A DNA stretch of 63,324 bases. It comes from Oligoflexales bacterium. Its GTDB lineage: Bacteria; Bdellovibrionota_B; Oligoflexia; Oligoflexales; RGVZ01. The translations under genes were made by a program, and so were the position numbers. Positions 9,249-52,817 of the stretch are shown in pieces. The notes below the pieces were generated by a model that ran no database searches, was not told where the DNA came from, and worked only from the letters and a program-made list of their open reading frames with translations. Numbering within the stretch: position 1 is the stretch's first letter; each line of letters starts with the position of its first letter. Location: contig CANILH010000009.1 in assembly GCA_947468665.1 (NCBI GenBank), positions 1-63,324 on the forward strand, read 5' to 3'.

Positions 9249-9275
9249 TAAAGTTTTCACAAAAACTAACGAATA
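9249..9275 (+). promoter_or_regulatory. Predicted sigma-28 (FliA) promoter of the first flagellin gene
   Basis: The -35 is TAAAGTTT, an exact match to the enterobacterial FliA consensus, followed by N11 and AACGAATA, which keeps the central CGA of GCCGATAA. The flagellin ATG is about 80 bp downstream. fliA itself is encoded at 52059-52817. Confidence 0.7.
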
Positions 9276-28545: not shown

Positions 28546-28572
28546 TAAAGGATCATTTTAAGACTCCGAGAT
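28546..28572 (+). promoter_or_regulatory. Predicted sigma-28 promoter of the third flagellin gene
   Basis: TAAAGGAT, N11, TCCGAGAT. The -35 core TAAAG and the -10 CCGA sit at the FliA spacing seen at 9249. The flagellin ATG is 52 bp after the -10. Confidence 0.6.
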
Positions 28573-28623: not shown

Positions 28624-29517
28624 ATGGGTCTACGTATCAAAACTAACGTAAGTTCAATCAACGCGCAGCGGAACTTGGCTACGACCAACAACGCGGCAAA
28701 AGAAACCATGCAGCAGCTTTCCAGTGGCTACCGCATCAACAAAGCCGCCGATGATGCGGCAGGTCTTGCCATCTCCAATAACATTACGGCTAAGACGCGC
28801 TCTTTAGAGCAGGCATCCCGTAACGCCAATGATGGAGTGTCTCTCGTATCTATCGCGGAATCCGGCATGAATGAGATCACTAATATCTTGACCCGCCTTC
28901 GCGAACTCGCGACTCAGGCAGCGTCTGATACGATCTCCAACGTGGAACGCGGATACACAAACCGCGAGTATACCAAGCTCGTGGATGAAGTTCAGCGTAT
29001 TGCTAATACAACAGAGTGGAACGGTCTAAAAGTTCTCCAGGGTTCGGCTGGAAACAAGGAATTTGGAGGTGATCTCATCACGATCCATGTTGGCTCTGGT
29101 GACGGGACCGTTGAAAACCGTGACACAATTAAACTTGATATTGACGCGATGAGTCTGAATCCTGCCGAGGACCTCGGTCTTGAGGCTACCGGAAGTCAGA
29201 TTGGTCCGGAAAATGACGGTGATAGCTTCACGCGTTCGATGGCCTCTGAGAAACTAGGTAAGATTGACAAGGCCCTGGGCCGCGTCGCCTCAACCAGAGC
29301 GACTCTCGGAGCGCAGCAAAGCCGTTTGACGTCAGCCATCAATAACCTTGGCATTCAGGTTGAGAACTATAAAGGTGCCAATAGCCGTATCCGTGACGTT
29401 GACTTTGCGTCCGCTACAGCGGCCTTTACACAAAACAAGATTCTCGCACAAGCAGGTGCATCTGTTCTTGCTCAGGCGAATCAGGAACCTGAGATTGTTA
29501 TGCAGCTTCTTCGCTGA
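28624..29517 (+). CDS. Flagellin (third, separate copy)
   Basis: A 297-residue flagellin with the conserved N-terminus (LRIKTNVSSINAQRNL, LSSGYRINKAADDAAGLAIS) and C-terminus (RIRDVDFASATAAFTQNKIL ending IVMQLLR) and a short variable centre (about residues 135-205). AGGAGG lies eight bases before ATG. It has its own FliA-like promoter and lies 17 kb from the tandem pair, which suggests separate dosage or placement in the filament. Sequence identity with the other two is high in D0/D1 only. Confidence 0.96.
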   Translation: MGLRIKTNVSSINAQRNLATTNNAAKETMQQLSSGYRINKAADDAAGLAISNNITAKTRSLEQASRNANDGVSLVSIAESGMNEITNILTRLRELATQAASDTISNVERGYTNREYTKLVDEVQRIANTTEWNGLKVLQGSAGNKEFGGDLITIHVGSGDGTVENRDTIKLDIDAMSLNPAEDLGLEATGSQIGPENDGDSFTRSMASEKLGKIDKALGRVASTRATLGAQQSRLTSAINNLGIQVENYKGANSRIRDVDFASATAAFTQNKILAQAGASVLAQANQEPEIVMQLLR

Positions 29518-37530: not shown

Positions 37531-38958
37531 ATGCCTCATAAGCATTTATCACCAAAAGTCATGCGCTCTGACGCGGTAGCGTTTTTTAAAAAACTTCTTG
37601 GGGAGACATATGTACTTACCGGAGAGGCCGATCTTAAAGCCTGGGGTACGGACTGGACTAAGGTTTTTGAGCCAAAACCGCTGTGCGTTGTCTTGCCGTC
37701 ATCGACAGAGGACGTCAGTAAAATCCTCTCCTACTGCAACACGAATGAGTTGGCGGTGACCCCCTCCGGCGGCCGCACAGGACTTTGCGCGGGGGCGGTA
37801 GCCAGTGACGGTGAAATTGTTGTCAATCTGACTCGCATGTCAAAGATTATGGCTGTGGATACGACGGGTCTTACCCTCACAGCTGAGGCCGGTGTCACGA
37901 CTCAGGCTCTGCAAGACGCCGCGAAAGAAAATGGGCTATTTTTTCCGTTGGATCTCGCGTCCAAAGGGACTTGTCAAATAGGCGGTAATATCGCGACTAA
38001 CGCCGGTGGTGTGAAGCTTATCAAATATGGCGGCACAAGAGAGCAGGTCTTAGGTCTTGAGGTGGTGCTCGCGAGTGGCGAGATACTTGATATGAACGTG
38101 GCACTCAGGAAAAATAACTCGGGCTATGATTTAAAGCATTTATTTATTGGCAGCGAGGGAACCCTTGGAATTGTTACTAAAGCGGTGTTGAGACTGATGC
38201 CAAAGCCCAGAAACCTGCAGCTCGCGATTATGGCAGTCGGTGATTTTATCAGTATCCCAAAGATTCTGGCGGTATGTAGTCAGAAGTCAGCGTCTGTAAC
38301 GGCTTTTGAGTTTTTTACCGAGGTGGCTCACAAAATAGTTCTCCAGCGCCTACCGGGGGCGAGAACACCTTTTAAAGATATCTCGCCTTTTTATGTATTG
38401 CTTGAGATCGAGCAGCCAGGGCGTGAGCCGGAGCTGGAAGAGCTTCTTGAGGCTTTGTTTGAGGAGGGCCTGATAACTGATGCAGCCATTGCAGCGAACT
38501 CAACTCAATTTAAAGAATTCTGGGGGCTAAGGGAAAATATTACAGAGTCCCTTGCCGCTCATGGGCAGGTTAGAAAAAACGATATTTCGCTAGCCATTGA
38601 TAAGCTTGACGGGTTTGTAAAAGCGCTTCAGGTGTTACTTCTCTCAAAAAGACCGAAAGACATGGAGATTGTTTTCTTTGGCCACATTGGTGACGGGAAT
38701 TTGCATATTAATTATGTCTCGCCTAAAACTCGCGACAGTAAAGACTTTCATGCGGAAGCCCGGGAGATTGAGGAAGGCGTGTTTAAATTACTGGCGTCTT
38801 TTAAGGGCAGCATCTCAGCGGAGCATGGTATTGGACTGACCAAGAAAAAAGATCTTCACTTCACCAGAACTGACAGTGAGGTCAGTTGGATGCGGATGAC
38901 TAAAAAAATGTGGGATCCCAAAGGAATACTAAATCCTGGGAAAATCTTTGATCTCTAG
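37531..38958 (+). CDS. FAD-linked oxidase, GlcD/D-lactate or D-2-hydroxyglutarate dehydrogenase type
   Basis: A 475-residue soluble flavoenzyme with a PCMH FAD-binding domain (VTPSGGRTGLCAGAV, then CQIGGNIATNAGG and FIGSEGTLGIVT) and a C-terminal FAD oxidase cap with the HIGDGNLHINY metal-type motif and SAEHGIGLTKK. Relatives oxidise D-lactate, glycolate or D-2-hydroxyglutarate; the exact substrate cannot be read. The ribosome-binding site is weak (GGGAA). Confidence 0.87.
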   Translation: MPHKHLSPKVMRSDAVAFFKKLLGETYVLTGEADLKAWGTDWTKVFEPKPLCVVLPSSTEDVSKILSYCNTNELAVTPSGGRTGLCAGAVASDGEIVVNLTRMSKIMAVDTTGLTLTAEAGVTTQALQDAAKENGLFFPLDLASKGTCQIGGNIATNAGGVKLIKYGGTREQVLGLEVVLASGEILDMNVALRKNNSGYDLKHLFIGSEGTLGIVTKAVLRLMPKPRNLQLAIMAVGDFISIPKILAVCSQKSASVTAFEFFTEVAHKIVLQRLPGARTPFKDISPFYVLLEIEQPGREPELEELLEALFEEGLITDAAIAANSTQFKEFWGLRENITESLAAHGQVRKNDISLAIDKLDGFVKALQVLLLSKRPKDMEIVFFGHIGDGNLHINYVSPKTRDSKDFHAEAREIEEGVFKLLASFKGSISAEHGIGLTKKKDLHFTRTDSEVSWMRMTKKMWDPKGILNPGKIFDL

Positions 38959-38992
38959 TCATTATTTCGTTGCCGGAAGATTTTATTTCGGC

Positions 38993-39019
38993 AAAAGTTA
39001 CTCTAACAATTCGCGTTAA
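38993..39019 (+). promoter_or_regulatory. Weak sigma-28-like element before the cysteine-rich secreted-protein gene
   Basis: AAAAGTTA, N11, CGCGTTAA, six and five of eight consensus positions. Plausible but weaker than the flagellin elements, and the region is AT-rich. Confidence 0.3.
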
Positions 39020-39080
39020 ATAATTACTGGGCATGGTGCCCAATATTTCGAAGGCGCGTTTTAATTTGGAGACTATTTTC

Positions 39081-39383
39081 ATGATCACAAAAACATTATT
39101 GGCAATCAGCGTTCTTGGTATGGGTTCAGTAGCTATGGCAGGCCAAAATTCCTGCGATTACTCAGCAGCTAAGGTTTGTATTGAAAGCGCGAACGTTGAT
39201 TTGTCTGAAGACTGCGCTCAAAATCAAGGAACTGTTGGCACAACTTGCCCGACAGGTGACCGCATGGGTACATGCACAGTGACTCAAGGTACTCTTTCTG
39301 TAGACGTTCGTTACTACAATGGCTTTCAGGCAGATGCTGAGCAAAACTGCGCTGAGAACAACGGCGCTTACACACGCGGTTAA
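39081..39383 (+). CDS. Small secreted cysteine-rich protein of unknown function
   Basis: A 100-residue protein with a signal peptide (1-20, LLAISVLGMGSVAMA) and an 80-residue mature part with six cysteines (CDYSAAKVC, EDC, TTC, GTC, QNC), likely forming disulfides. The order GTC, RYYNG, AEQNC, NNGAY resembles a small module I recall from secreted proteins of related bacteria, but I cannot name a family. GGAG lies eleven bases before the ATG. A hairpin and the fabH gene follow. Confidence 0.75.
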   Translation: MITKTLLAISVLGMGSVAMAGQNSCDYSAAKVCIESANVDLSEDCAQNQGTVGTTCPTGDRMGTCTVTQGTLSVDVRYYNGFQADAEQNCAENNGAYTRG

Positions 39384-39433
39384 TTGCGGGTCGGGACTCT
39401 CTTTACAAGAGTCCGCCTGAATCTTAACTGTTT

Positions 39434-39452
39434 GTTTAATTTAAAATTAAAC
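39434..39452. promoter_or_regulatory. AT-rich perfect palindrome upstream of fabH
   Basis: GTTTAATTT-A-AAATTAAAC: a 9-bp perfect inverted repeat around one base, in the gap before fabH. Candidate operator; the regulator is unknown. Confidence 0.45.
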
Positions 39453-39461
39453 AAAAAATAT

Positions 39462-39503
39462 AAAATTCCTCCAGGTGATTCAAATCATTTGGAGGAATTT
39501 TTT
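39462..39503 (+). promoter_or_regulatory. Hairpin containing the fabH ribosome-binding site
   Basis: The 5' arm 39462-39479 and 3' arm 39484-39501 form an 18-bp stem (two G-U pairs) capped by UCAA. The outer 12 bp (AAAATTCCTCCA/TGGAGGAATTTT) pair perfectly, and the 3' arm contains the GGAGG of fabH. A run of T follows to 39503, directly before ATG, so it can also be read as a terminator for the upstream gene. Confidence 0.8.
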
Positions 39504-40502
39504 ATGATTACTAGGGCGATTATTACAGGAACTGGACACTGTGTCCCGGACCGCGTTGTGACAAACAATGATCTTGCTAAAATAATGGACACCTCTGATG
39601 AGTGGATCCAGCAGCGCTCAGGCATTCGGGAGAGACGCCATATTGAGGACGGACTCGCGCCAAGTGATTTGGGAGCGAAGGCGGCGTTAAATGCCCTCGA
39701 GGCCGCCAAATTAACCCCTAAAGATATCGATCTTTTGCTGGTAACGACACTTTCCTCTGAGCATACGTTTCCCGGAACCGCCGCCTTCATTCAAAGAAAA
39801 CTTGGCATGCAGGGCATTCCGGCGATGGATCTTCGAGCTCAGTGCTCAGGATTCCTTTATGGACTTGCCACGGCAGATGCCTTCATAAAAAGTGGTTCTT
39901 ACGGCCGGGTACTGCTTGTGTCGGCGGAGGTTCATTCGAGAGCTCTTGATTTTAGCGACCGCGGTCGTGATACGGCAGTCCTCTTTGGCGACGGTGCTGG
40001 AGCGGTTATCCTTGAGCCAAGTCCTAATCCTGAGCGCGGCATTATGTCGATAAAACTTCATAGCGACGGGGATTTCGCGGAGAAATTGTGGGTCGAGTAT
40101 CCGAGCATGGCCCAGACTCCGCACGTGACTCCGGAAATTGTCCGTGAAGGCGGGGTCTATCCAAAGATGGACGGAAAATTTGTCTTTAAACACGCGGTAA
40201 CAAGGCTTCCTGAAGTGGTTTCCGAAGTGTTGGAATCTCTCCATTTAAAACCTCAAGATATTGATCACTGGCTTTTTCATCAGGCCAATCTCAGGATCAA
40301 TGAGCGCGTGGCGGCGACCTTGGGAGTCTCAGTGGAAAAGTGTCCATATAATATCGACCGTTACGGTAATTGCTCGTCAGCCTCGATTCCAATTTTACTG
40401 GATGAACAAGTACGGGCCGGGAACATTAAGCCCTGGAAGCTCATTTGCAGTGCGGCCTTTGGCAGTGGGTTTACCTGGGGTGGAGCCGTCATTCGCTGGT
40501 GA
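39504..40502 (+). CDS. fabH: 3-oxoacyl-ACP synthase III FabH
   Basis: FabH starts fatty acid synthesis by condensing acetyl-CoA with malonyl-ACP. The 332-residue protein has the catalytic Cys114 in DLRAQCSGFL, His in FHQANLRI and Asn in RYGNCSSASIP, the complete triad. ATG at 39504 has GGAGG eight bases upstream and matches the family N-terminus (TGTGHCVPDRVVTNNDL); a longer frame from 39384 is not favoured. The ribosome-binding site is buried in a stable hairpin. Confidence 0.96.
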   Translation: MITRAIITGTGHCVPDRVVTNNDLAKIMDTSDEWIQQRSGIRERRHIEDGLAPSDLGAKAALNALEAAKLTPKDIDLLLVTTLSSEHTFPGTAAFIQRKLGMQGIPAMDLRAQCSGFLYGLATADAFIKSGSYGRVLLVSAEVHSRALDFSDRGRDTAVLFGDGAGAVILEPSPNPERGIMSIKLHSDGDFAEKLWVEYPSMAQTPHVTPEIVREGGVYPKMDGKFVFKHAVTRLPEVVSEVLESLHLKPQDIDHWLFHQANLRINERVAATLGVSVEKCPYNIDRYGNCSSASIPILLDEQVRAGNIKPWKLICSAAFGSGFTWGGAVIRW

Positions 40503-40530
40503 GGTTTTTTAAATTAGACGAGAGATAAAG

Positions 40531-40559
40531 AGAGGCTCTCAAATATGAGAGCCTCTTTT
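40531..40559. terminator. Terminator between fabH and convergent pckG
   Basis: A 10-bp stem AGAGGCTCTC/GAGAGCCTCT with a 6-nt loop and a short T tail on the plus strand. It lies between the two convergent stops. Confidence 0.75.
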
Positions 40560-40585
40560 AAGTTTGGATAGGTGGTATAACCGGA

Positions 40586-42343
40586 TTAGCTGTTGAGCTC
40601 ATTAGTGATGCGTTTAAGCTCGCTAAGAAGTTCATCCGGCATATGGCTGCCGTATTTATCAAAGTATTCTTTGATGCCAGTCATCTCTGACTTCCAGGCA
40701 GGCGCTTCAATTGAAAGAAGCTCGCGCATTGTTTCGGTCGTAAGGCCAGTGCCATCAGTATTGATAGCGTCTGTGGTAGGCAGATATCCGATAGGCGTGC
40801 GAATGGCGTCACCTTGGCCCTCGCAGCGCTTTAGAACCCACTCAAGAACCCGCATGTTGTCGCCAAAGCCAGGCCACATGAATTTCCCGGCTTTATCCTG
40901 ACGAAACCAGTTGACGTGGAAAATTTTGGGGAGCCTGTCAGATTTCTTGGCAAACGATAGCCAGTGAGTCCAGTAGTCGCCAAAGTTATAGCCGCAGAAT
41001 GGCTGCATAGCCATAGGGTCGCGGCGAACAACACCGACGGCTCCAGTAGCGGCCGCTGTTGTCTCAGACGCTACAGAGGCGCCAAGGAACACTCCGTGAG
41101 CCCAGGACACGGATTCTACTACGAGGGGAGCAAGCTCTTTGCGGCGACCGCCAAATACAATCGCCGAGAGTGGAACGCCATGAGGATCTTCCGCAGCCGG
41201 CGTGTAGCTTCCACACTGCTGAGCGGAAACAGTAAAACGGCTATTGGGGTGAGCGGCGGGGCCTTTGCCGGATTCCCATGGCCGTCCTTGCCAGTCGGTG
41301 AGGCCTTCTGGAGCGGATTTTGTGAGGCCTTCCCACCAAGGCTGTTTATCTTTGGTGATGGCGACATTGGTGAAGATCGCGTCCTTATTTAGCATATTGA
41401 GAGCCGTTGGATTGGTGTTAGCCGCTGTCCCTGGAGCCACACCAAAGTAGCCTGCCTCTGGGTTGATGGCATAAAGGCGGCCGTCTTTGCCTGGCTGAAT
41501 CCAGGCGATATCATCACCGACGGTAAATACCTTCCAGCCTTTTTCGCGGTAACTTTGTGGCGGGATCAGCATGGCAAGATTTGTTTTACCGCAAGCTGAC
41601 GGAAAGGCCGCCGCGACATAGTGGCGTTCACCTTTGGGGTTCTCGATACCGACAATCAGCATGTGTTCTGCAAGCCAGCCTTCTGTGTGCGCCTGCCAGG
41701 AGCCAAGCCTTAGAGCGTGGCATTTTTTACCAAGAAGAGCGTTTCCGCCGTACCCAGAACCAATGGACTTGATGGCAAGTTCTTCAGGAAAGTGCATGAC
41801 AAGCCGGCGATCTGGGGAGAGATCTCCAATGGAGTGAAGGCCTTTAACGAAAGTGCCTTCTTTCTCGATGCGTTTGAGAGCTTTTTCGCCCATGCGGGTC
41901 ATGATGCGCATATTTATTACGACATAGGCGCTGTCAGTGATCTCGACACCACAGCGGGATAGTGGTGAATCGATAGGGCCCATGCAGTATGGGATCACAT
42001 ACATGGTGCGGCCTTTCATACAGCCGGCAAATAACTGATCTACCTTTTTGTGGCCTTCAGCGGGTTCAAGCCAATTATTATTGGGGCCAGCGTCGTCTTT
42101 ATTTTTGCTGCACACAAAGGTCAGGTGCTCGGTACGGGCGACATCACTCGGGTCTGACCGGTGAAGGTAGCAGCCAGGATGGCTTTGCTCGTTAAGCGGA
42201 ATAAGAGAACCTGTTTTAACCATTTCCGCGATTAGAGTTTTTTTCTCGGCCTCACCGCCATCACACCAGTGAATTTTGTCAGGTTTAGTGAGAGCCGCGA
42301 CCTGCGCGACCCATGCCTCGAGAGCCTTGTTTGTGGTAGTCAT
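40586..42343 (-). CDS. pckG: Phosphoenolpyruvate carboxykinase, GTP-dependent
   Basis: Converts oxaloacetate and GTP to PEP, CO2 and GDP in gluconeogenesis. The 585-residue protein belongs to the GTP class: the P-loop FPSACGKTNLAM with the active-site cysteine, RRKELAPLVVES, and the C-terminal nucleotide-binding NWFRQDKAGKF are all present. The ATP-class motif is absent. Monocistronic by context; two hairpins flank it. Confidence 0.95.
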   Translation of the reverse strand: MTTTNKALEAWVAQVAALTKPDKIHWCDGGEAEKKTLIAEMVKTGSLIPLNEQSHPGCYLHRSDPSDVARTEHLTFVCSKNKDDAGPNNNWLEPAEGHKKVDQLFAGCMKGRTMYVIPYCMGPIDSPLSRCGVEITDSAYVVINMRIMTRMGEKALKRIEKEGTFVKGLHSIGDLSPDRRLVMHFPEELAIKSIGSGYGGNALLGKKCHALRLGSWQAHTEGWLAEHMLIVGIENPKGERHYVAAAFPSACGKTNLAMLIPPQSYREKGWKVFTVGDDIAWIQPGKDGRLYAINPEAGYFGVAPGTAANTNPTALNMLNKDAIFTNVAITKDKQPWWEGLTKSAPEGLTDWQGRPWESGKGPAAHPNSRFTVSAQQCGSYTPAAEDPHGVPLSAIVFGGRRKELAPLVVESVSWAHGVFLGASVASETTAAATGAVGVVRRDPMAMQPFCGYNFGDYWTHWLSFAKKSDRLPKIFHVNWFRQDKAGKFMWPGFGDNMRVLEWVLKRCEGQGDAIRTPIGYLPTTDAINTDGTGLTTETMRELLSIEAPAWKSEMTGIKEYFDKYGSHMPDELLSELKRITNELNS

Positions 42344-42435
42344 TACGGTGATCCTGTTTGATTAAAAAATTGCGGAAAGACATCCACATTAAAAACGGGC
42401 GGGATGTCTAAAAAACAGTTATCCAAAAAACACTG

Positions 42436-42459
42436 AAAACCCGCTAACCATGGGCTTTT
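42436..42459 (-). terminator. Weak intrinsic terminator after the receiver-TPR gene
   Basis: Minus strand AAAAGCCC pairs with GGGTTTTC around a 9-nt loop, with one G-U pair and a T-rich 3' side. It lies 33 bp after the stop of the 42493 gene. Confidence 0.5.
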
Positions 42460-42492
42460 AACATGCGTTTGGGGGGGGTTGGCAATAGCTCT

Positions 42493-44664
42493 TTAGCTTG
42501 CCGTTTTAGTTCCGTCGGCGCCGGCAAAGGTCTCGCCTCTTTCAAGGGATTTGCGCGCCTTAAATTTAGGCGCCACTGCCAGGGCTTTAGTCAGCTCAGG
42601 GGAGTCGGCTGAGGTGGTCTTAAACAAGAGGTAGCAACAATGGTCACCGGGGCCTTGTTCTAGCATGACCGTGACAAGAGTTGAGGCATCGGCTGTTTGC
42701 CCTTCTTCTTTGTTGGTGGGTGCGGGTTCAGGCGCGTTGGCCGCGTCGACCTCACGAAGCGAGAAAGTTTTCCCGGTTATTACGGCGGGTTCAAGTCTTG
42801 CTTTAAGATCCGCCGCCTTTTTATGCACACGGCTTTCAGTGATGGAGATAACGGCATCTAGGTCGGGTAATGCTCCGGAAAAATCGCCAAAACGGATCTT
42901 TGCCAAGGCCATATTATAGTTAACAATCGAGAGGATATCTCTTTGTGCCGATGGAATCGCGGCTAGCGTCTTTTCGTAGAGTTTGATGCCTTCCTCAGAA
43001 AAACCACACTTGGCATGAGCTACGGCTTTGTTGTTCAAATAGCTGATTACATTACTCATGGATTCTAGCTGACCAAGAATCTCTTTGGCGGCCTCTGGTG
43101 ATCCACCTGCCAGGGCAACTTTGGCCTCGCCCTCTATGGTCGTTGTGCTATTTGGGTCAATGTCCTTGGCCTTATTGATGGACTCAACCGCTTTGACCGG
43201 CTCAACCATTTCAGCTTGAGTCTCAGCCATCATGACAAGTCGCTCAAGGTTTGTTGGTGATAAGCCTTGGGCTTTCTGGAAGCACTTCAAGGCCGGCTCA
43301 AACTGTCTGAGTGTCATGAGTGACTTTCCGAGAATGTTGAGCGCGAAAAGGGACTCTCCGCTTTGTCTGATGGCCTCAATCGAAAAGTCACGGGCTGCCT
43401 CAAACTGGTCCTTGGCGAACGCCTGCTCGGCCCTCATAACGGCTTTTCTTCCGGGCGCGATTCCCACATCGGCAAGATATCGGGCAATGAGTTCCTCGGC
43501 ATTGCCGATTTTCTTGTTGCTAATGTAAGCCCGGATTTTATTTTCCATTGTCTGGGCTTCAGTTGGCATGCGGTCTTGTTGAACCGTCCAAATAATCACT
43601 TTAAGGAATGCGTCGCGCTCCATAGGTTTTTGGGCGAGATTTGCCACACCCATCTCGCGTATGATCGGCATATCCATAGGTTTGATAAGGGAGCTTAGTA
43701 ATATGATCGGTACGTTGACAGCACCCTTGGAGCGGATTCTCTGCAGTAGAAGAGGCCCCGTCACTTTTGGTATCCGCCACTCCATAATAACCAGAGACGG
43801 TTCTGGATTCGCGCGGAACCACTCAAAAGCCGCGTCACCATCGGCGAAGTCAAAGATGTCTTTCACACCGAGTTCGTTGAAAATTGCTCGGACGGCGGAG
43901 CGTACCGAGTCGTCGCCATCTATAATAACGACAACCCCGAGGCCAAGTATGTTCTCGCCTGCGACGGGAGCGGCGTCCGGACCACCGGCATCAGCGCCAA
44001 AAAGCGCGGCTCGTTTCTCCTTTATGGTCGCGGCCGCGCCGGTGTCAATGAATTCCACTTGCTTTAAGGTTGCTTTGGCCTTGTCAGTCTGTCCATTCAC
44101 ATGAAGTGCCTCGGCAAGGCAGATAAGAAGTTTCGTGTTGCCAGGGAATAACTCAAGAAGGCTTTTCTCAAGAGTAAGGAGGTCTGCAGCCTGGTTGGTC
44201 TCGCGAAGATGTTTTCTTAGGTACTCTGAAGAGGTGCGGGCCGCGTCCCAGTCATTTTCGGCGAAAATTCCCATGAGCTCCTCAAGCTCCTTGGTGAGGC
44301 TGTCCTTTGTAAAGGGCTTCATATGAAAGCTTAGTAGCCCGAACTCAAACGCTTTTGAAAGGGCCCACGCCTCGGCATCCTCTACGAGAAGCGAGACCTT
44401 TACTCCCTTCAGCTCAGCAAAATTGATGACCATACGGACAGTCTGGAGTCCATTAGCATCTTGTGTGCCGTTAAGAGGAACGATGAGCCAATCAACGGAC
44501 TCTGTCTCAAGAAGATTGTGTGCGTCCGCGAGAGACGAGACTGATTGCGAATTACTGAAACCAATACCCTTCGACACTTCGGAGAGAAGTTGCCGCACAG
44601 GTCCAGACGAGTCTACTAAAACGACTCGTGCGGTTTTATCCTGAAATTTAGTTTCTATGGCCAT
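42493..44664 (-). CDS. Double pseudo-receiver protein with TPR repeats
   Basis: A 723-residue soluble protein. Residues about 10-130 form a first degenerate receiver (ARVVLVDSSGPVRQLL, FHMKPFTKDSL) without a phosphorylation Asp; residues about 150-225 are TPR-like; residues about 245-365 form a second receiver (VVVIIDGDDSVR, LVIMEWRIPKVTG, AQKPM) in which the phosphoacceptor is Glu295, a change that often mimics the phosphorylated state. TPR repeats follow (about 370-640). No output or DNA-binding domain, so it is likely a protein-interaction scaffold. It shares its upstream intergenic region with the VWA lipoprotein gene and has a FliA-like promoter. A smaller relative lies at 48405. Confidence 0.8.
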   Translation of the reverse strand: MAIETKFQDKTARVVLVDSSGPVRQLLSEVSKGIGFSNSQSVSSLADAHNLLETESVDWLIVPLNGTQDANGLQTVRMVINFAELKGVKVSLLVEDAEAWALSKAFEFGLLSFHMKPFTKDSLTKELEELMGIFAENDWDAARTSSEYLRKHLRETNQAADLLTLEKSLLELFPGNTKLLICLAEALHVNGQTDKAKATLKQVEFIDTGAAATIKEKRAALFGADAGGPDAAPVAGENILGLGVVVIIDGDDSVRSAVRAIFNELGVKDIFDFADGDAAFEWFRANPEPSLVIMEWRIPKVTGPLLLQRIRSKGAVNVPIILLSSLIKPMDMPIIREMGVANLAQKPMERDAFLKVIIWTVQQDRMPTEAQTMENKIRAYISNKKIGNAEELIARYLADVGIAPGRKAVMRAEQAFAKDQFEAARDFSIEAIRQSGESLFALNILGKSLMTLRQFEPALKCFQKAQGLSPTNLERLVMMAETQAEMVEPVKAVESINKAKDIDPNSTTTIEGEAKVALAGGSPEAAKEILGQLESMSNVISYLNNKAVAHAKCGFSEEGIKLYEKTLAAIPSAQRDILSIVNYNMALAKIRFGDFSGALPDLDAVISITESRVHKKAADLKARLEPAVITGKTFSLREVDAANAPEPAPTNKEEGQTADASTLVTVMLEQGPGDHCCYLLFKTTSADSPELTKALAVAPKFKARKSLERGETFAGADGTKTAS

Positions 44665-44745
44665 ACGCCCCTGTTCGTCGCGATACTACCCGATAATTTG
44701 GACTTTACTCGTCATGAGTAATAACCCCCGATCATCGCCTACTTA

Positions 44746-44772
44746 CTATCGGCAGAAAATTTAAGTTCTTGA
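44746..44772 (-). promoter_or_regulatory. Predicted sigma-28 promoter of the receiver-TPR gene
   Basis: TCAAGAAC, N11, GCCGATAG: the -10 matches seven of eight FliA consensus bases. The start codon lies 82 bp downstream on the minus strand. Confidence 0.6.
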
Positions 44773-44965
44773 TGTCCCGGCCGGTAAGTTTTCCAGCGGA
44801 TCAATTGGGGGTTTCAGCACAATAGACCTAACAGTCAGTGATCCCGCGTCATTGGAAAAGCTCATTCGTGGCAGCGGGATTTAACGAGGAGGCGGGAAAT
44901 GGCAGAAACCACTCTGATTTAACGTCCCGTAAACGTTAGGAATATTCCATATTTTAAATATTTAC

Positions 44966-44992
44966 TAAAGGAATCTAGCCACCGGACGAAAA
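44966..44992 (+). promoter_or_regulatory. Predicted sigma-28 promoter of the VWA lipoprotein gene
   Basis: TAAAGGAA, N11, GACGAAAA: the -35 core TAAAG and six of eight -10 consensus bases. The lipoprotein ATG is 53 bp downstream. Confidence 0.6.
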
Positions 44993-45044
44993 CATACCTA
45001 GCAACACCTTTCCGGTGGGGCCCTGATTTAGAGGACACTATATT

Positions 45045-47246
45045 ATGAAGACATTTCTATCTGCGTTATTGGTAACCTCGTCGTCTCTGATCGCTCTGAC
45101 ATCGTGTCACTCAGAGGTGAAATTTGCTGGTGGAACCGGACACACATATGACGCTGTATCAAGTCAGGTTTTTAATTTTACTGCGTCTACTATCGCGGAT
45201 GGAAGCGTCAGTATCAAAGACAGCGGCCGCTATACAGCCGTAGATATTACACAAGCTGAAACAAGGCCATCTCAGGTTATTCAGCCGCAGTTAACGCGCA
45301 AATCGTATGATGACGTGTTTAAGCAGGGGCATAACGCGCGGTTTAGTACCGAGACCTTCCAGCTTAGCGAGGCTGGGATGCTGGATCTTCTGCTGGTCAT
45401 TGATGACTCCAGTTCCATGAAAGAGGAACAGGACATGGTCGCTACGGGACTTTCAGCCCTGATCGGCGACTTTAATGATACCAACTGGCAGATCGCCGTG
45501 ATCTCTACGACCGATGAGTGCGTAACAAAGGACAATCTCATTACAAAGGGAGACATAAACGCGGAGGCAAAGTTCTCCGCCGCCGTAAGACGGGGAACCA
45601 ACGGGAGCAGTATCGAGATGGGCTTTCCGAAGTCCATCCTCGCGCTGAAGGGAGAGTGCAGCGGGATTTTTCGTAATGGCCTCAAGTGGGTCCGACCAGG
45701 CTCATCATTGGGTGTTATGATACTTAGTGATGAGGACAATTGCGGCTCGGCCCCGGGCGAGGTGGATAAATGCCGTAATGTGTACGGAAAGAACGCCGGT
45801 GAGATGGTAAGTTTTTTAAGGTCCATCCGCGCGCCTGAAGAGGCGAAAATATACGCCATAGTTGATAAGGACGGAACCTGCCCCAACGCAGGCGGTACCG
45901 GGACAATGTATGTCCAGGCGGCAGCCCTTACAAACGGCACCGTCGGGTCAATTTGCCATGATTTCACGCAGGCGAATGGTTATTCCGACTATCTGAAGTC
46001 TGTTTCCAAGGATGTCAGCCGGTTAATCAAAAGACAGTTTACGCTTTCCGCTGTGCCAGACCTCGCTTTGTTTGATGTGTTTGTTGACGGTCAGAAGGTT
46101 GACGCGACCGGAGCGTTTACAGTTGTCGGTAAAGTCGTCTATATCGACCCCGTGCGATTCAAAGTGGGTCAAAAAATCACGTTCTCTTATTCACACGACG
46201 CGATTCCAATGTTTAGCAGTGTTGCCGCCCAGGCAACACCTGATATGAGCTCCGTAAAAATCTCGGTAAACGGTATAGCTCTCTCTCAAGACACTGATTT
46301 TACCTTTGATCCCGTAAAGCGGGAATTTGCATTCGCGAAGATGCCACCTGAGGACGCGAAAGTCACGGTAAGCTACATAGAGGACTTGAAACTGCTGACT
46401 CACTTCGGCGTTGATTTAACTGGCGTTCGACCAGATACACTGGCCGTTTCGGTAAATGGCGTCGCAGTTGACTCCAAAAATTACTCGTATGGTCGGACCG
46501 GCATTGATTTTCCGACGCCACCCACAGACGGAGCTTACGTCACAGTCTCGTGGAAAACTGAGGCGAATAAAATATTGTCTTATGCGGCCGCTATCAATGA
46601 CGCGCGTCATGTCGCCGCGTGGACTCTAAAAGACAAAAAAACGGGCGACGACGTCGCTGCCCAGTGGGATCAGAAGAACCTTGTATTCACGCCTGACAAT
46701 GTCGTAGAAGGCAAAGAGCTTTCTCTTGTCGTTGACTTTGGCGCAAAATCATCAGTGAGGACAGTGGATCTTCCCGATGTCCGTATAGATGACGATGTAA
46801 AAATTGTCGCAGATGGCCAAGATGGTATCTGTTCTCCTAAAGATAAACCCGTCTATGATACTGGTGGAGCTCCGCCAACGGCCATGGCGGATGTCTCAAA
46901 GGATGATTTACAAGACACCCCAGACACTGGGAACAATAAAGACCCGTCGTGGAAGTCCAGGTATAAGGGCAGTGAACTTGAGATCCAGTGTAAAGACGAT
47001 ATGGACTATACAGATCTCGCGATACACTACAAACATGAGGTTTCCCGTACAAATCATTTCAAGGTAAGTCTTCCTGAAGGAGTTAACCCGGACGGCGACA
47101 ACCTCGCATGGAAGGTGTTTATCGCTGGGGTGCCAATCAAGCAGTTTAAGAGAACTGGCGCGGAGGTCGAAATAGAGGATGACCTTCTCCCACCAGAAAT
47201 CAGAGTCGACATAGAGGTCGTTACGTACACAAAAGTCACGAAATAA
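45045..47246 (+). CDS. Surface lipoprotein with von Willebrand A domain and repeated beta domains
   Basis: A 733-residue protein with a lipoprotein signal (lipobox LTSC, Cys21) and a VWA domain starting near residue 113, whose MIDAS D-x-S-x-S is Asp120, Ser122, Ser124 (VIDDSSSM), followed by SDEDNC. Residues about 340-506 hold three similar repeats of roughly 45-50 residues ending in VTVSY- or ITFSYS-like strands. A low-complexity, Asp-rich linker and a final beta region follow. VWA domains bind proteins through a metal ion, so an adhesin or surface receptor role is inferred. A FliA-like promoter precedes it; a terminator follows at 47262. Confidence 0.85.
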   Translation: MKTFLSALLVTSSSLIALTSCHSEVKFAGGTGHTYDAVSSQVFNFTASTIADGSVSIKDSGRYTAVDITQAETRPSQVIQPQLTRKSYDDVFKQGHNARFSTETFQLSEAGMLDLLLVIDDSSSMKEEQDMVATGLSALIGDFNDTNWQIAVISTTDECVTKDNLITKGDINAEAKFSAAVRRGTNGSSIEMGFPKSILALKGECSGIFRNGLKWVRPGSSLGVMILSDEDNCGSAPGEVDKCRNVYGKNAGEMVSFLRSIRAPEEAKIYAIVDKDGTCPNAGGTGTMYVQAAALTNGTVGSICHDFTQANGYSDYLKSVSKDVSRLIKRQFTLSAVPDLALFDVFVDGQKVDATGAFTVVGKVVYIDPVRFKVGQKITFSYSHDAIPMFSSVAAQATPDMSSVKISVNGIALSQDTDFTFDPVKREFAFAKMPPEDAKVTVSYIEDLKLLTHFGVDLTGVRPDTLAVSVNGVAVDSKNYSYGRTGIDFPTPPTDGAYVTVSWKTEANKILSYAAAINDARHVAAWTLKDKKTGDDVAAQWDQKNLVFTPDNVVEGKELSLVVDFGAKSSVRTVDLPDVRIDDDVKIVADGQDGICSPKDKPVYDTGGAPPTAMADVSKDDLQDTPDTGNNKDPSWKSRYKGSELEIQCKDDMDYTDLAIHYKHEVSRTNHFKVSLPEGVNPDGDNLAWKVFIAGVPIKQFKRTGAEVEIEDDLLPPEIRVDIEVVTYTKVTK

Positions 47247-47261
47247 TCTGAATATAAAATG

Positions 47262-47299
47262 AAAAAGCTCCACGGGCGATGGCCTTGGCGCTTTTTTTT
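47262..47299 (+). terminator. Intrinsic terminator after the VWA lipoprotein gene
   Basis: AAAAAGC pairs with GCTTTTT around an interrupted inner stem (CCA/TGG, GGC/GCC), followed by eight T. Confidence 0.8.
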
Positions 47300-47310
47300 C
47301 GTCAAGTTTA

Positions 47311-47321
47311 TGTGCTATAAG
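47311..47321 (+). promoter_or_regulatory. Extended -10 promoter element before the YbhN-type gene
   Basis: TGCTATAAG fits the TGnTATAAT extended -10, 28 bp before the GTG start; no good -35 is seen. Confidence 0.4.
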
Positions 47322-47348
47322 AGGACCTTGTAATGGGGAGGCTGATCG

Positions 47349-48356
47349 GTGCAGGCAGGCAAAAATATTTTAATTAATGTTCTAAAAATGACATTTGTGG
47401 CTCTTTTACTCTGGTGGATGGCTGCATCAGGCCGTCTATCGTGGTCTCAGATGGCCATTATTTTGAACAGGCCAGACGCTTTGGCGGCAAGTGTCGCCGT
47501 TTGGTTATTTGGCCCCGTGCTTCTTGGGACAGCGCGCTGGTGGCTTCTTATGCGGGGAGCTGGCCTGAAATGCGGATATTTCCGCGCCATGAAGCTTCAA
47601 TTGGTCGGCTTTTTCTTCAATACCGCCATGCCAGGGGCTGTCGGTGGTGACATCATAAAGGCCATTTACATTATGCGCGAGCAACCAGCCGGAGGTGGTA
47701 AGACGCCCGCGATGCTCAGCGTGCTTTTGGACCGCATAGTCGGTCTTATCGGACTGTTTGTTATGGGGGTTGTCGCGGCAGGATTTTCATACCGGCAGTT
47801 GGTCAGTAATCCGGTTACTGCGCAGCTGATGAGTGGATTGGCGTTGGTGGTATTGCTTAGTGCTGTATTTTTAGGGCTCGTTTTCTTGCCATATCCTGAT
47901 GGGCGAGATCCATTTAAAAAAATACTCTCGCAGACACTACCGGGCTTTTCAGTGCTCCATGGGATTTATGAGGCTCTGCGCAGCTACAGGAAGAAACCCG
48001 GAATTCTTATTTCGACCATTATGATTTCTGTGTTTATTCAGGTCATATTTTTGTTTTTTATGGGATTTATCGGCCGTATTATGTATGGGTCTGACGCCTT
48101 TGATCAGACGCTGCTTGCCCCGATATTTCCATTTGGTATTTTAATAACAGCCATCCCTCTCGCGCCAGGGGGGCTTGGCGTGGGGCATGCCGCCTTTGAT
48201 AAATTGTTTGCCCTGGTTGGGCTTCCTGGTGGGGCAAATGTCTTTAACGCCTATGTTTTAAGTCAGCTTTTGCTGAATTTCCTAGGCATCATTCCATACC
48301 TCTCAATGAAAACATCTATTGCCGGGACGTCGCCAGATCAAGTTCAGGTAATCTGA
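47349..48356 (+). CDS. YbhN/UPF0104-family multi-pass membrane protein
   Basis: A 335-residue inner-membrane protein with about eight hydrophobic segments and the family signature GAVGGDIIKAIYIMR near residue 97, together with VLLDRIVGLIGLF and the C-terminal LAPGGLGVGHAAF. Relatives are the lysyl-phosphatidylglycerol synthase flippase half and putative isoprenoid or lipid transporters. The GTG start has GGGGAGG seven bases upstream. It lies after the VWA lipoprotein terminator and before the single-receiver TPR gene (48 bp), with which it may be co-transcribed. Confidence 0.85.
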   Translation: MQAGKNILINVLKMTFVALLLWWMAASGRLSWSQMAIILNRPDALAASVAVWLFGPVLLGTARWWLLMRGAGLKCGYFRAMKLQLVGFFFNTAMPGAVGGDIIKAIYIMREQPAGGGKTPAMLSVLLDRIVGLIGLFVMGVVAAGFSYRQLVSNPVTAQLMSGLALVVLLSAVFLGLVFLPYPDGRDPFKKILSQTLPGFSVLHGIYEALRSYRKKPGILISTIMISVFIQVIFLFFMGFIGRIMYGSDAFDQTLLAPIFPFGILITAIPLAPGGLGVGHAAFDKLFALVGLPGGANVFNAYVLSQLLLNFLGIIPYLSMKTSIAGTSPDQVQVI

Positions 48357-48404
48357 TACCGATATAATTCAACAAACTTGCTATTCCTTGCGGAGGCTAG
48401 AACG

Positions 48405-49697
48405 TTGGCAAACCTGATTGAAAAAGTCATCATCGTTGATGAAAGCGACGGCAACGTCCTTTTTTGGGAGATGCTGCTGACGGATCTTAAGCTTACGATT
48501 TTCAAGGCGCGAACCGGCGCGAAGGCGCTTGAAGTCATCGAGAAAGAGGACATTCAATTGGCGATTGTGGCATGGGAGCTTAGCTCCATGTCTGGCGCGA
48601 TTCTTCTTCAGAAAGTCAAGGCTAATACGAAGAGACGCCGGATGCCGTTTATAATTTACTCAAAACGAATGTCCGATGAAGATGTGCAAATTACGCGTGA
48701 AATCGGCGTGGATAACGTTTTAAATATGCCGTTTGATAAAGCGAAGGTTAGGGAGATTATAACCCGTCTGATCGAGGACGAATCCAATATCAGCCCTCTC
48801 GAGGTAAAGCTGCGTCATATGGAAGACTTCCTTGGGGAGGGTAAACCCACTGAGGTACTAAAAATGGTTGGACCTCACGTTAGCGAACAAGGGCCTCACC
48901 TACCTCGCTATAAAACAATTATCGCCGAGACATTCCTCCAGATTGGGAATCTTGACAAAGCTCTGAAAGCGGCAGATGAATGTCTCGAGGTTGATGGAAG
49001 CTATCTTCCGGGACTTTATATCAAAGCCAGGCTGTTATCCGCCTGGGGGAGGCATAATGAGGCTATCGCGGTATTAAAAGCGGTCGCGGAAAGTCGTCCG
49101 CAAAGTATTCAACCGCTGGTAAATCTCGGATCAGCGTATATTTCCGCCGATAAAATTGAGGATGCGAAAAAAACTATCGATAAGATCAGCAGCCTTGACC
49201 CGGATTGCGAGGAGACCAAAGACAATAAGGGCAAAATTGCGTTGAAAGAGGGAAATATTGGACTGGCAGCGCAGCTATTGAGTGAGACTCAAAATGGCGA
49301 CGAGATCGCGCGCTTTTACAATAGTATCGGTATATCCATGGTGGCAAAAGGGGATTTCGAAAGTGGGATAGAAACATACCAAAGCGCGATTAAAATTCTG
49401 TCGTCTAAGACAAAATTACATCTGTTGTTTTTTAACCTGGCTCTCGCGTATCGCAAAAAAGGCGATATTCAAAATGAAGTCGCCTATTTCTGCGAAAGCT
49501 ATGTGACGGAACCGTCGTTTGAGAAGGCCTATGCCTGCATCGCGCGCGGTGTCCAGGAGGCCAATGTAAAGGGGGTAACACTCAATATGCCGACACTGAA
49601 CGCAGTGTTGGCGCGGAGGAAGGTCTTTTTAACCGAGAATCCGAAGGCGGCGGAGAGAATAAAAGAGCGCCTTGAAAAGGCATCGGCGGCTAGTTGA
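48405..49697 (+). CDS. Single pseudo-receiver protein with TPR repeats
   Basis: A 430-residue protein: an N-terminal receiver (residues about 5-120; VIIVDESDG, LAIVAWELSSMSG, NVLNMPF) whose phosphorylation site is Ala56 and whose usual switch lysine is Met, so it cannot be phosphorylated in the normal way; then TPR repeats (about 125-400). It resembles the second half of the 42493 product. I chose TTG at 48405, which has GGAGG eight bases upstream; a start at 48378 is less likely. No output domain; a scaffold role is inferred. Confidence 0.78.
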   Translation: MANLIEKVIIVDESDGNVLFWEMLLTDLKLTIFKARTGAKALEVIEKEDIQLAIVAWELSSMSGAILLQKVKANTKRRRMPFIIYSKRMSDEDVQITREIGVDNVLNMPFDKAKVREIITRLIEDESNISPLEVKLRHMEDFLGEGKPTEVLKMVGPHVSEQGPHLPRYKTIIAETFLQIGNLDKALKAADECLEVDGSYLPGLYIKARLLSAWGRHNEAIAVLKAVAESRPQSIQPLVNLGSAYISADKIEDAKKTIDKISSLDPDCEETKDNKGKIALKEGNIGLAAQLLSETQNGDEIARFYNSIGISMVAKGDFESGIETYQSAIKILSSKTKLHLLFFNLALAYRKKGDIQNEVAYFCESYVTEPSFEKAYACIARGVQEANVKGVTLNMPTLNAVLARRKVFLTENPKAAERIKERLEKASAAS

Positions 49698-49722
49698 CTG
49701 AGTATAACGAGGGGTTGATATT

Positions 49723-50508
49723 ATGACATTGCTTCAAAGACCCGGCGCCACCATAAACTATGAGTTCATTGGAGAAAAGAATACGCCGGTCGTTACGCTT
49801 GTTAATGGCCATACAAGATCAAGCAGTGATTTTCGGATGATGGCAAGGATTCTCGCGGGCGATGGGATTGCGGTCTTATCGCTTGATAATCGCGCCGCTG
49901 GTAAATCAGAGGCTGAGGGCTCATTTACAATTAAAGACATGTGCGCTGACGTGGTTGCCATTTGGGATGAAATCGGCATTCAGAAGTCGAGCCTGCTAGG
50001 CATATCAATGGGTGGATTTATCTCGTTGGGGATAGCGATCACATTTCCGGCGAGGGTCAACAACCTGATCCTGGTATCTACGGCGCCGGAGGCCCGCTAC
50101 ATTAATCCAACGAGTGGCGGCTGGATTAGTGAGGGAAACGAGCTTGATAAAAGAATGCGCACCTATTTCGCTCCGGGATTCGTGGAGCGAAATCCAGTAT
50201 TATTCAATACGATGGTTAGTCAGATCCGGCAGGCTATTGACTCCGGGCAATTTACCAAACGGTCCGACATGCAGCGTGAGGCGCTCCGCGGGGCCGAATG
50301 GACATCACAACTTGGAAAGATTTCCGCGCGAACATTAATCATCCACGGGCAGCAAGACCTGGTAATAGACCTGGCAGCCGGGGAACTTTTATCGCAAGAA
50401 ATACCCGGAGCAAAAATTGAGGTGATAGCGAACGCCGGCCACCTGCTTCTCGCGGAGGCTCCCAAAGAACTCTATCGCCTGGTCCAGGAATTTTTGAGGG
50501 AGAGATGA
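49723..50508 (+). CDS. Alpha/beta-hydrolase fold protein
   Basis: A 261-residue protein with the nucleophile elbow GISMGGF (Ser95), LDNRAAGKS, the acid strand IIHGQQDLVID and histidine in NAGHLLLAEAP, a full triad. Substrate unknown. It follows the TPR gene by 25 bp and is convergent with the flagellar operon end, 3 bp away. Confidence 0.85.
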   Translation: MTLLQRPGATINYEFIGEKNTPVVTLVNGHTRSSSDFRMMARILAGDGIAVLSLDNRAAGKSEAEGSFTIKDMCADVVAIWDEIGIQKSSLLGISMGGFISLGIAITFPARVNNLILVSTAPEARYINPTSGGWISEGNELDKRMRTYFAPGFVERNPVLFNTMVSQIRQAIDSGQFTKRSDMQREALRGAEWTSQLGKISARTLIIHGQQDLVIDLAAGELLSQEIPGAKIEVIANAGHLLLAEAPKELYRLVQEFLRER

Positions 50509-50511
50509 TTT

Positions 50512-51102
50512 TTAGGGAGTGCCGGCGACGAGTCGGACTTCCTGCGCGCTGACGCCGAGATCACTCGCTATGCGCTCAGGTTGGATGCCTCTCGCGAGGA
50601 GTGCGCGGATGTCGGCGTAGCGACGGACCTCGAGTTGCTCCACAATGTCTTCCCAGGAATCTCCCGCATTCAGTAGTTTGGCGGCGTTCTCCGCGCGGGC
50701 AACTACCCGCGCGAGCAACTCCCGCTCTTTGTGCGCGTCCTTTGACAGCTGGGCGATAAAATGCTGCTTCTCGTTAAGCGCCCGCATTGGTGAGTCGAGT
50801 TTTTGGGAGATGTTGGCGATAATCACATCCACTTCTTTAGTAATCTCGGAGACGCCCTGCCTGACCTCTTGCTCCGCCTCAGTCGCCAATAATTGGACCT
50901 GATCCCTAAGGGTTCGCACCTGATTTTGTGTTGCTTGCAATTCTGCACGGATCTGGGCCCGCAATTCGGAGAGCAGGCCTCGTTCTTCAGTCAGCTCGCG
51001 AACAACTTCCTGACTGTCAGTTTGCCGTCTCTGCAGGCGTAAGAATGCGAACACGATGAAGACATCAGCCAATACTACACAAAGGAGGACCATGCCAACC
51101 AT
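50512..51102 (-). CDS. Membrane-anchored coiled-coil protein at the end of the flagellar operon
   Basis: A 196-residue protein with one N-terminal membrane segment (about residues 2-20), a long coiled coil (about 25-150) and a C-terminal helix-turn-helix-like end (YADIRALLARGIQPERIASDLG) that recalls DUF2802/DUF6115 proteins of flagellar loci. It lies 3 bp after the PilZ-like gene. Role unknown; a structural or regulatory part of motility is inferred from position. Confidence 0.65.
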   Translation of the reverse strand: MVGMVLLCVVLADVFIVFAFLRLQRRQTDSQEVVRELTEERGLLSELRAQIRAELQATQNQVRTLRDQVQLLATEAEQEVRQGVSEITKEVDVIIANISQKLDSPMRALNEKQHFIAQLSKDAHKERELLARVVARAENAAKLLNAGDSWEDIVEQLEVRRYADIRALLARGIQPERIASDLGVSAQEVRLVAGTP

Positions 51103-51105
51103 AAT

Positions 51106-51591
51106 TCACCCCTCTTGAAGGTAATTTTTAAGAACGAGCTCGTCGGTCTCATCAATACTGACGGTTTGAACTGTTACGGATTTTTTTTTACCACGCCTTC
51201 CGATGCTCTCTACACTTATGACTTTTGCGAGAATTGGAAAGCGTGCTGGCTGGTCAGTGCGCCGATACTGTACGAAGCGAAGTTTGCGCTGCCAATAGTC
51301 AGGTATGTCAAGATGAATTCTAAGAAGGGTGCCAGGAGCGTATGACGCAGTGGTGTGAAATTCGATGCCATGGGGGCTGATGTGGACGCTCTGCGTCGCT
51401 TCTAGAGTGTCATCATCGGCCGACAGGCTGTAGGCGCCGTATTTCATGGAAACTTTACGGGTGCTGCGCGGGTATTTTTTGATAAGTGACGCGTCAAATT
51501 TTCCTGGTGATGTTGACTCAGGGACAGCCGAAGCTTGGGGGGTTGTTGATTCAATGTTCGCATTTATAACGTTTGGCTGTAAATTGCTCAT
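51106..51591 (-). CDS. PilZ-like protein
   Basis: A 161-residue protein whose residues about 40-155 match a PilZ fold: YPRSTRKVSMKYG in place of the RxxxR arm, SVHISPHGIEF for the D/NxSxxG motif, then a beta-barrel with PGTLLRIHLDIP. Both c-di-GMP motifs are imperfect, so binding is uncertain. PilZ proteins near flagellar genes act as brakes (YcgR type). It follows cheY by 26 bp. Confidence 0.7.
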   Translation of the reverse strand: MSNLQPNVINANIESTTPQASAVPESTSPGKFDASLIKKYPRSTRKVSMKYGAYSLSADDDTLEATQSVHISPHGIEFHTTASYAPGTLLRIHLDIPDYWQRKLRFVQYRRTDQPARFPILAKVISVESIGRRGKKKSVTVQTVSIDETDELVLKNYLQEG

Positions 51592-51617
51592 AAAGTATTA
51601 CCCGATCAAAATTGTGA

Positions 51618-52019
51618 TTAACTAGCTTTTCTTGTCGCAAAAACCTTCGCCAACTTTTCTTGCAGAGTTACCCCGGTAAATGGCTTCACGATGTAGTTAT
51701 TCACCCCGCTCTTTACTGCTTCGATAATATTTTCTTTTTCGGCTTCGGCTGTGACCATTAGAAATGGGAGGTGCTTAAATCTCGCGTCCGCGCGGACGGC
51801 CTTCAGAAGCTCCAGGCCGGTCATGTTGGGCATGTTCCAATCGCTTATAATAAATTCGATGTCTGGCGTAGTTTCCAGCATCTTAAATCCTTGCACGCCA
51901 TCTTCCGCCTCCACAAAGTTCGTGTAGCCGTTTTGGCGCATTAGGGTTTTAACGATGCGACGCATCGTGGGGAAGTCGTCAACTACCAGAATTTTCATGT
52001 CGGGACGGCCTAATGCCAT
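51618..52019 (-). CDS. cheY: CheY chemotaxis response regulator
   Basis: A 133-residue single receiver with all key residues: Asp14 and Asp15 (LVVDD), phosphoacceptor Asp60 (ISDWNMP), Thr90 and Lys112 (VKPF). It binds FliM when phosphorylated. ATG at 52019 has GAGGAG nine bases upstream; a longer frame to 52052 is less likely. It lies 39 bp after fliA in the flagellar operon. Its intact acceptor contrasts with the pseudo-receivers at 42493 and 48405. Confidence 0.93.
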   Translation of the reverse strand: MALGRPDMKILVVDDFPTMRRIVKTLMRQNGYTNFVEAEDGVQGFKMLETTPDIEFIISDWNMPNMTGLELLKAVRADARFKHLPFLMVTAEAEKENIIEAVKSGVNNYIVKPFTGVTLQEKLAKVFATRKAS

Positions 52020-52058
52020 GGTGTAAATCTCCTCTATGTAGTCTCTGCACAAAAGTAA

Positions 52059-52817
52059 TTAGTCAGAAAGAATCGAGCGGTGCTTCTTTAGCTTTTCTAT
52101 GGCCTGTGTGTGAAGTTGACTGACGCGTGACTCGGTGACTTCGAGAATGCGTCCAATTTCCTTCAGATTCAGATCCTCGAAATAGTAGAGTTGCAAAACG
52201 AGTTTTTGCTTCTCGGGTAGCTCGTCTATGTGTCGACGGAGGATATCCCTCGCGGAAGCGTTACGAAGTTGAGTAAATGGATTTTTTGAGTTTGGGTTCT
52301 CTAGAGAGTCTAGCAGACTTCGGCGCTCCGTATTACCGTTTGTTCCGCCGAAATCGTCAATAGAGAGAAGCTGTACACCCTTAACTTTAGCGTTCATGTC
52401 GAAGAATTCATCTATTGGCATGCCGAGGGCCTGGCTCAACTCGTCATCCGTTGCCTTTCTTCCGAACTTCTGTTCCAGATCCGAAGCCATTCTATCGAGA
52501 CGCTTGGCCTTATCTCTTACCGAGCGCGGCACCCAGTCCTGGCTTCTGAGCTCATCGAGAATCGCGCCACGAATTCGAAACTCAGCATATGTTTTAAATT
52601 TATTATCTCGGCTTGGATCATATTTATCGATAGCGTCCATTAGGCCGATGACGCCGCTGCTGATTAAATCTTCGATGTCGATATTGCTCGGCAGGCGGGA
52701 TCCGATTCTTTGTGCCACAAACCGAATTAGTGGTGAGTAGTCCATGATCAATTGATCACGTAACTTCCCATCGACTGCGGTGTTTTCCTGCTTGTATTTT
52801 TTAACGAGTGATTTCAT
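52059..52817 (-). CDS. fliA: Sigma-28 factor FliA
   Basis: A 252-residue sigma factor for late flagellar genes. Region 2 (LIRFVAQRIGSRLPSNIDIE, GVIGLMDAIDKYDPS, FRIRGAILDELRSQDWVPRSVR) and region 4 (LPEKQKLVLQLYYFEDLNLK with EVTESRVSQLHTQAI) are present and region 3 is short, as in FliA. It follows flhG by 56 bp. Candidate promoters for it occur across the window. flgM is not in the window. Confidence 0.95.
   Translation of the reverse strand: MKSLVKKYKQENTAVDGKLRDQLIMDYSPLIRFVAQRIGSRLPSNIDIEDLISSGVIGLMDAIDKYDPSRDNKFKTYAEFRIRGAILDELRSQDWVPRSVRDKAKRLDRMASDLEQKFGRKATDDELSQALGMPIDEFFDMNAKVKGVQLLSIDDFGGTNGNTERRSLLDSLENPNSKNPFTQLRNASARDILRRHIDELPEKQKLVLQLYYFEDLNLKEIGRILEVTESRVSQLHTQAIEKLKKHRSILSD

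Follow-up and report, generated by a model that had tools for sequence, protein, structure and literature searches.

The 380-bp gap at positions 44665-45044 separates two divergent genes of an Oligoflexales bacterium and raises the question of which form of RNA polymerase reads them, and whether they are controlled as a pair. The window, that is the whole stretch of 63,324 nt that was analysed, forms contig C9 of a metagenome assembly of 2.6 Mb with a completeness of 85% (genome G000; it and its congeners, compared below as G000-G005, belong to the same genus). The MAGs closest to it carry the labels Oligoflexales bacterium, Pseudobacteriovorax or Bdellovibrio, which makes a place in Oligoflexia of the Bdellovibrionota most likely. 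On one side of the gap lies a minus-strand gene (42493..44664) for a 723-aa protein with TPRs and two receiver domains, and on the other a plus-strand gene (45045..47246) for a 733-aa lipoprotein consisting of a lipobox LTSC (Cys21), a VWA/MIDAS domain (DDSSS) and then tandem beta domains. The lipoprotein start is preceded by a ribosome-binding-site-like AGAGGA (45030..45035, plus strand), the AGAGG of which is identical in all six congeners. FliA is usually seen as the sigma that serves the late flagellar genes. The sole FliA/WhiG-type sigma found in the assembly is encoded by fliA at 52059..52817 (minus strand), about 7 kb from the gap, and flagellins and flagellar export genes also lie within the window.

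The original prediction placed two outward-facing sigma-28 motifs in the gap, each 11 bp after a -35-like box, and both were located where it had put them. The minus-strand site (44772-44746) reads TCAAG-N14-GCCGATAG, with TCAA(G) as the -35, a 15-nt spacer and a -10 at 44753-44746 that ends 81 nt upstream of the ATG of the TPR/pseudo-receiver gene. The plus-strand site (44966-44992) reads TAAAG-N14-GACGAAAA, with TAAA(G) as the -35, a 15-nt spacer and a -10 at 44985-44992 that ends 52 nt upstream of the lipoprotein ATG. Both -10 boxes stand 15 nt past the TMAA tetramer, which is the same as 11 nt past the octamers TCAAGAAC and TAAAGGAA, the count used in the original prediction. A TAAA-type -35 and a CGA-core -10 at the sigma-28 spacing of 15-16 nt are present at both sites. 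The geometry was also, as proposed, that of the sigma-28-like promoters of the window's flagellins, which we used as references: TAAA-N15-TCCGAGAT at 28546..28572 (plus strand) for the flagellin at 28624 and TAAA-N15-AACGAATA at 9249..9275 (plus strand) for the flagellin at 9356. The genome holds one cognate FliA, together with known targets, the flagellins, that carry the same motif. The plus -10 GACGAAAA deviates from GCCGATAA, a point against FliA control, although AACGAATA or AACGAAAT stands in flagellin promoters of this family. A de novo EM motif from the flagellin upstream regions was dropped, being swamped by the orthology of the flagellin leaders. The enteric sigma-28 class 3 promoter has the form TAAAGTTT-N11-GCCGATAA, and the gap sites share with it the -35 TAAAG, the 15 nt after TAAA and the CGA core of the -10, but have softer -10 boxes (GACGAAAA, TCCGAGAA) and non-flagellar targets.

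When the textbook matrix TAAA-N15-GCCGATAA was compared with dinucleotide shuffles of the region, p-values of 0.012 (plus) and 0.005 (minus) were obtained. After small changes to the matrix (a G at position 5 and softer weights for the -10) the two sites took ranks 1 and 2 over both strands of the whole 63-kb window, ranks that depend on a matrix chosen after the sites had been seen. The comparison between spacers uses a single matrix throughout and is less affected by this adjustment. The plus site was kept in all six genomes of the genus and the minus site in all four that have the divergent pair. The plus -10, each time after TAAAG, is GACGAAAA in G000, G002 and G003, GACGAAAC in G001, GTCGAAGA in G004 and GACGATGA in G005; the minus site reads TCAAG..GCCGATAG in G000, TCAAG..TCCGAGAA in G002, TAAAG..CCCGATAC in G004 and TCAAG..GCCGATGT in G005. 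All ten sites have TMAAG with G as the fifth base and 15 nt from TMAA to the -10, even though the sequence around them has diverged. It is this comparison that carries most weight. When spacers of 9 to 21 were tried in turn, the plus and the minus sites gave one peak, at 15, which demonstrates a spacing-specific conservation among related genomes. The summed best score at spacer 15 was 81.0 for the plus site, versus 20.6-47.1 at spacers 9-14 and 16-21, and 55.0 for the minus site, versus 16.7-27.9. Relative to shuffles, z was 9.5 (plus) and 8.7 (minus), and the observed values were reached by 0 of 3000 shuffles.

Other elements were also looked for. Neither housekeeping sigma-70 promoters nor terminators were found across 44500-45200, and, with no Rfam match in the gap up to E=5, a riboswitch or another known RNA there was rejected. 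The gap does contain an 8-bp perfect inverted repeat, CCACCGGA/TCCGGTGG (44979-45018), which begins just upstream of the plus -10 and overlaps it. We rejected it as a regulatory hairpin: it is not conserved in the congeners, its fold energy is no better than that of shuffles and, because the 5' arm overlaps the plus -10, it would fall outside the transcript.

Sites of the same kind were detected outside the genus. Among TPR-receiver orthologues in 18 genomes of other genera, nearly all of them unlinked to a VWA gene, 11/18 had a site at spacer 15 versus 1-4 at each of the other spacers (p=2e-6, a value that, like those below, treats related genes and genomes as independent and is too small to that extent). 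The site was less frequent in 40 further matches of this family, 8 of which had it at a score of >=10, versus 0-4 at control spacers. VWA lipoproteins outside the genus had a site at spacer 15/16 in 20/35 cases versus 34/210 controls (p=8e-7), or 4-7 sites for each control spacer pair, the pooling of 15 and 16 having been decided after the peak at 16 had been seen. Some TPR-receiver and VWA homologues have no recognisable site, which speaks against FliA control. Across the order, sites of the sigma-28 type, spaced by 15 or 16 nt, often stand before VWA/MIDAS lipoprotein genes, flagellum-less genomes included (L271-L289; L011-L034; L132-L161). In the G000 genome TMAAG-N15-MCGAWA occurred 34 times versus 15 for the reversed pattern, so that roughly half of the genome-wide sites may be real. 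Genes starting 20-60 nt past TMAAG-N15-MCGAWA or TMAAG-N15-CCGANA sites make up a candidate regulon of this genome. The candidate targets include a LysM lipoprotein, an M23 peptidase, an S41 protease, an MlaD protein, a PP2C phosphatase and a PAS histidine kinase (candidate-target positions C1:53029, C1:78598, C4:9147, C12:37464, C28:10056 and C5:51870), and another gene behind such sites is a flagellin.

Judged from these sequence comparisons, the gap very probably holds two independent outward FliA (sigma-28) promoters, which would drive a putative adhesin-like lipoprotein and a TPR pseudo-receiver protein. The original prediction went further and had FliA control a surface/scaffold pair; the sites do behave as FliA promoters, but the linked pair was not borne out. 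In the genus, G002 and G004 keep the order FAD-oxidase, PEPCK, TPR-receiver, VWA and LPG synthase, and G005 keeps TPR-receiver, VWA and LPG synthase. The divergent arrangement in four congeners, which recurs between distant homologues in genus g19 (G030, G036), would suit a functional surface/scaffold module held by a shared bidirectional control region, an addition to FliA control. Such a module is unlikely: G001 and G003 lack the TPR-receiver gene, so that PEPCK adjoins VWA, yet retain the VWA promoter; outside the genus the two genes are mostly apart, each often behind its own site; and the relatives of the TPR-receiver gene in the order track flagella (29/35 flagellated genomes versus 0/8 without flagellin), whereas VWA relatives are present also in the flagellum-less genomes G011, G012, G019 and G020. 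The restriction of TPR-receiver relatives to flagellated genomes is at the same time in favour of FliA control, and the lack of good sites at the g19 pair counts against it. Because of the promoter retained in G001 and G003, these differing distributions and the lack of good sites at the g19 pair, the two genes are probably separate members of a regulon, and their neighbourhood is probably secondary.

We also considered that the plus site alone is used and that the TPR gene is read mainly from another promoter. The minus site cannot be aligned base for base across the species, and its -35 is TCAA in three of the four, but its geometry and its distance from the start (61-81 nt) are alike in all four congeners and sites precede unlinked TPR-receiver orthologues in other families, which makes this improbable. 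Chance, that is two degenerate 27-bp motifs in 380 bp with no transcriptional role, is strongly disfavoured and very improbable because the spacer control peaks at 15 only; each motif alone is expected about once per 80-200 shuffled regions and a third sigma-28-like site of similar score, unconserved, lies at 44761-44787 (plus strand), but the fixed spacing is conserved in 6/6 and 4/4 congeners despite diverged flanks, no shuffle attains the joint score and the sites are enriched in other genera.

As for the products of the two genes behind these FliA-type promoters, neither is encoded by a classical flagellar gene, in agreement with the original prediction, and one is a surface lipoprotein. 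It combines a signal peptide with lipobox and a VWA domain with the DxSxS MIDAS motif, as expected of a MIDAS-type adhesin, and Cys21, D120, S122 and S124 are invariant. The Foldseek matches of its low-confidence model (pLDDT 63) were integrin beta headpieces, with an integrin-beta-like fold; no solved structures were found by sequence search. The likeliest role of this protein is that of a surface adhesin. It scored 23.3 bits with the equivalog NF052240, below the cut-off of 700, and is a possible relative of the NF052240 MIDAS adhesins that stands outside that equivalog. Like the MIDAS adhesins Bd0875 and Bd1483 of Bdellovibrio bacteriovorus (PMC11003981; NF052240) it has a lipobox and a VWA domain with MIDAS among beta domains, but it is about twice as long, has extra tandem beta domains and matches NF052240 weakly. 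Bd0875 itself was undetected on unattached attack-phase cells. For the TPR protein, the label of pseudo-receiver proved apt. The first receiver domain has Pro63 where the phospho-acceptor Asp is expected; in the second, Glu295 replaces the acceptor Asp. This Glu does not vary among 10 orthologues, and the second receiver retains its acidic residues as well as Ser324 and Lys346. With the acceptor Asp absent from both receivers, the protein is not classed as a phosphorylatable response regulator, and since an invariant Glu stands in place of this Asp, its sequence suggests a locked, phosphorylation-independent interaction module. The TPR and receiver/pseudo-receiver family is expanded, with 15 matches in G000 and up to 29 in other genomes; in the window it is represented at 42493-44664 and 48378-49697, and the close orthologues carry an invariant Glu for Asp.

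We propose that FliA-RNA polymerase, freed once the flagellar hierarchy attains its late stage, would read TMAAG-N14-NNCGA on both strands. The holoenzyme would transcribe a MIDAS-type outer lipoprotein, presumably related to the prey-contact adhesins of Bdellovibrio, and a cytoplasmic TPR protein with two pseudo-receivers, which may have a phosphorylation-independent scaffold role. Both proteins would be made alongside flagellin in the swimming form. The two genes would belong to a broader FliA regulon outside the flagellum; they happen to adjoin in this genus and would form no obligate pair.

The occurrence of FliA was not restricted to flagellated members of the order. Eight of 43 Oligoflexales genomes had no flagellin match and no FlhA match (G011, G012, G015, G019, G020, G021, G028 and G039; loci L260 and L262-L268), at an estimated completeness of 92-96% for G011, G012, G019 and G028 and of 82-86% for the other four. 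All eight keep an intact FliA above the curated cut-off, 55-72% identical to the FliA of the window, with regions 2 and 4 well conserved. A PilZ gene adjoins fliA in seven of them, and in the stretches compared from those seven genomes no matches to the CheY-like gene, flhF or flhA were found beside fliA. Among the VWA lipoproteins of four flagellum-less genomes, 9/18 had a site at spacer 15/16 versus 18/108 controls (p=0.003). TMAAG-N15-CCGAWA showed no genome-wide excess in G012 over 800 kb (2 at spacer 15, 0-6 at others), so that the claim for the flagellum-less state there draws on the lipoprotein upstream regions only. Because eight apparently flagellum-less genomes still keep FliA, the sigma factor in this group probably does more than build flagella. 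We lean slightly towards the view that FliA serves the Oligoflexales mainly as a surface/life-style sigma, such that an ancestral non-flagellar regulon including the MIDAS lipoproteins would outlive the flagellum with FliA promoters still driving them. FliA-family sigmas without flagella are known elsewhere, namely WhiG of Streptomyces and sigma-28 of Chlamydia. A literature search found no report of FliA retained without flagella in Oligoflexales, which is weak evidence of novelty. As to gene order, the flagellum-less G011 (L260, G011:C53), read from ORF starts, seems to resemble the window at 37531-52817 in having FAD-oxidase-, LPG-synthase- and hydrolase-like genes next to pilZ-fliA; PEPCK, TPR-receiver and VWA, which lie between them in the window, seem to be missing.

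In B. bacteriovorus a FliA-like site was found in 92/140 attack-phase promoters, including those of cell-surface genes (Karunker et al. 2013, PMC3627812). The consensus reported there, TTAAG-N16-CCGATA (PMC3627812), implies a 16-nt spacing by our count. Our sites are like this attack-phase regulon (PMC3627812) in that FliA-type promoters stand before non-flagellar and surface genes in the same phylum; they are unlike it in that the host belongs to another class, predation is unproven here and the sites of this genus have a spacer one base shorter than that consensus implies. FliA regulating beyond flagella is thus already known in B. bacteriovorus; the more novel part is that FliA is kept where flagella appear to be lost. 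With two conserved FliA promoters and a FliA that survives apparent flagellum loss, the attack-phase idea is extended from Bdellovibrio to Oligoflexia, and named promoters are now available for asking what FliA does besides flagella. It is the retention of FliA without flagella that is most worth following.
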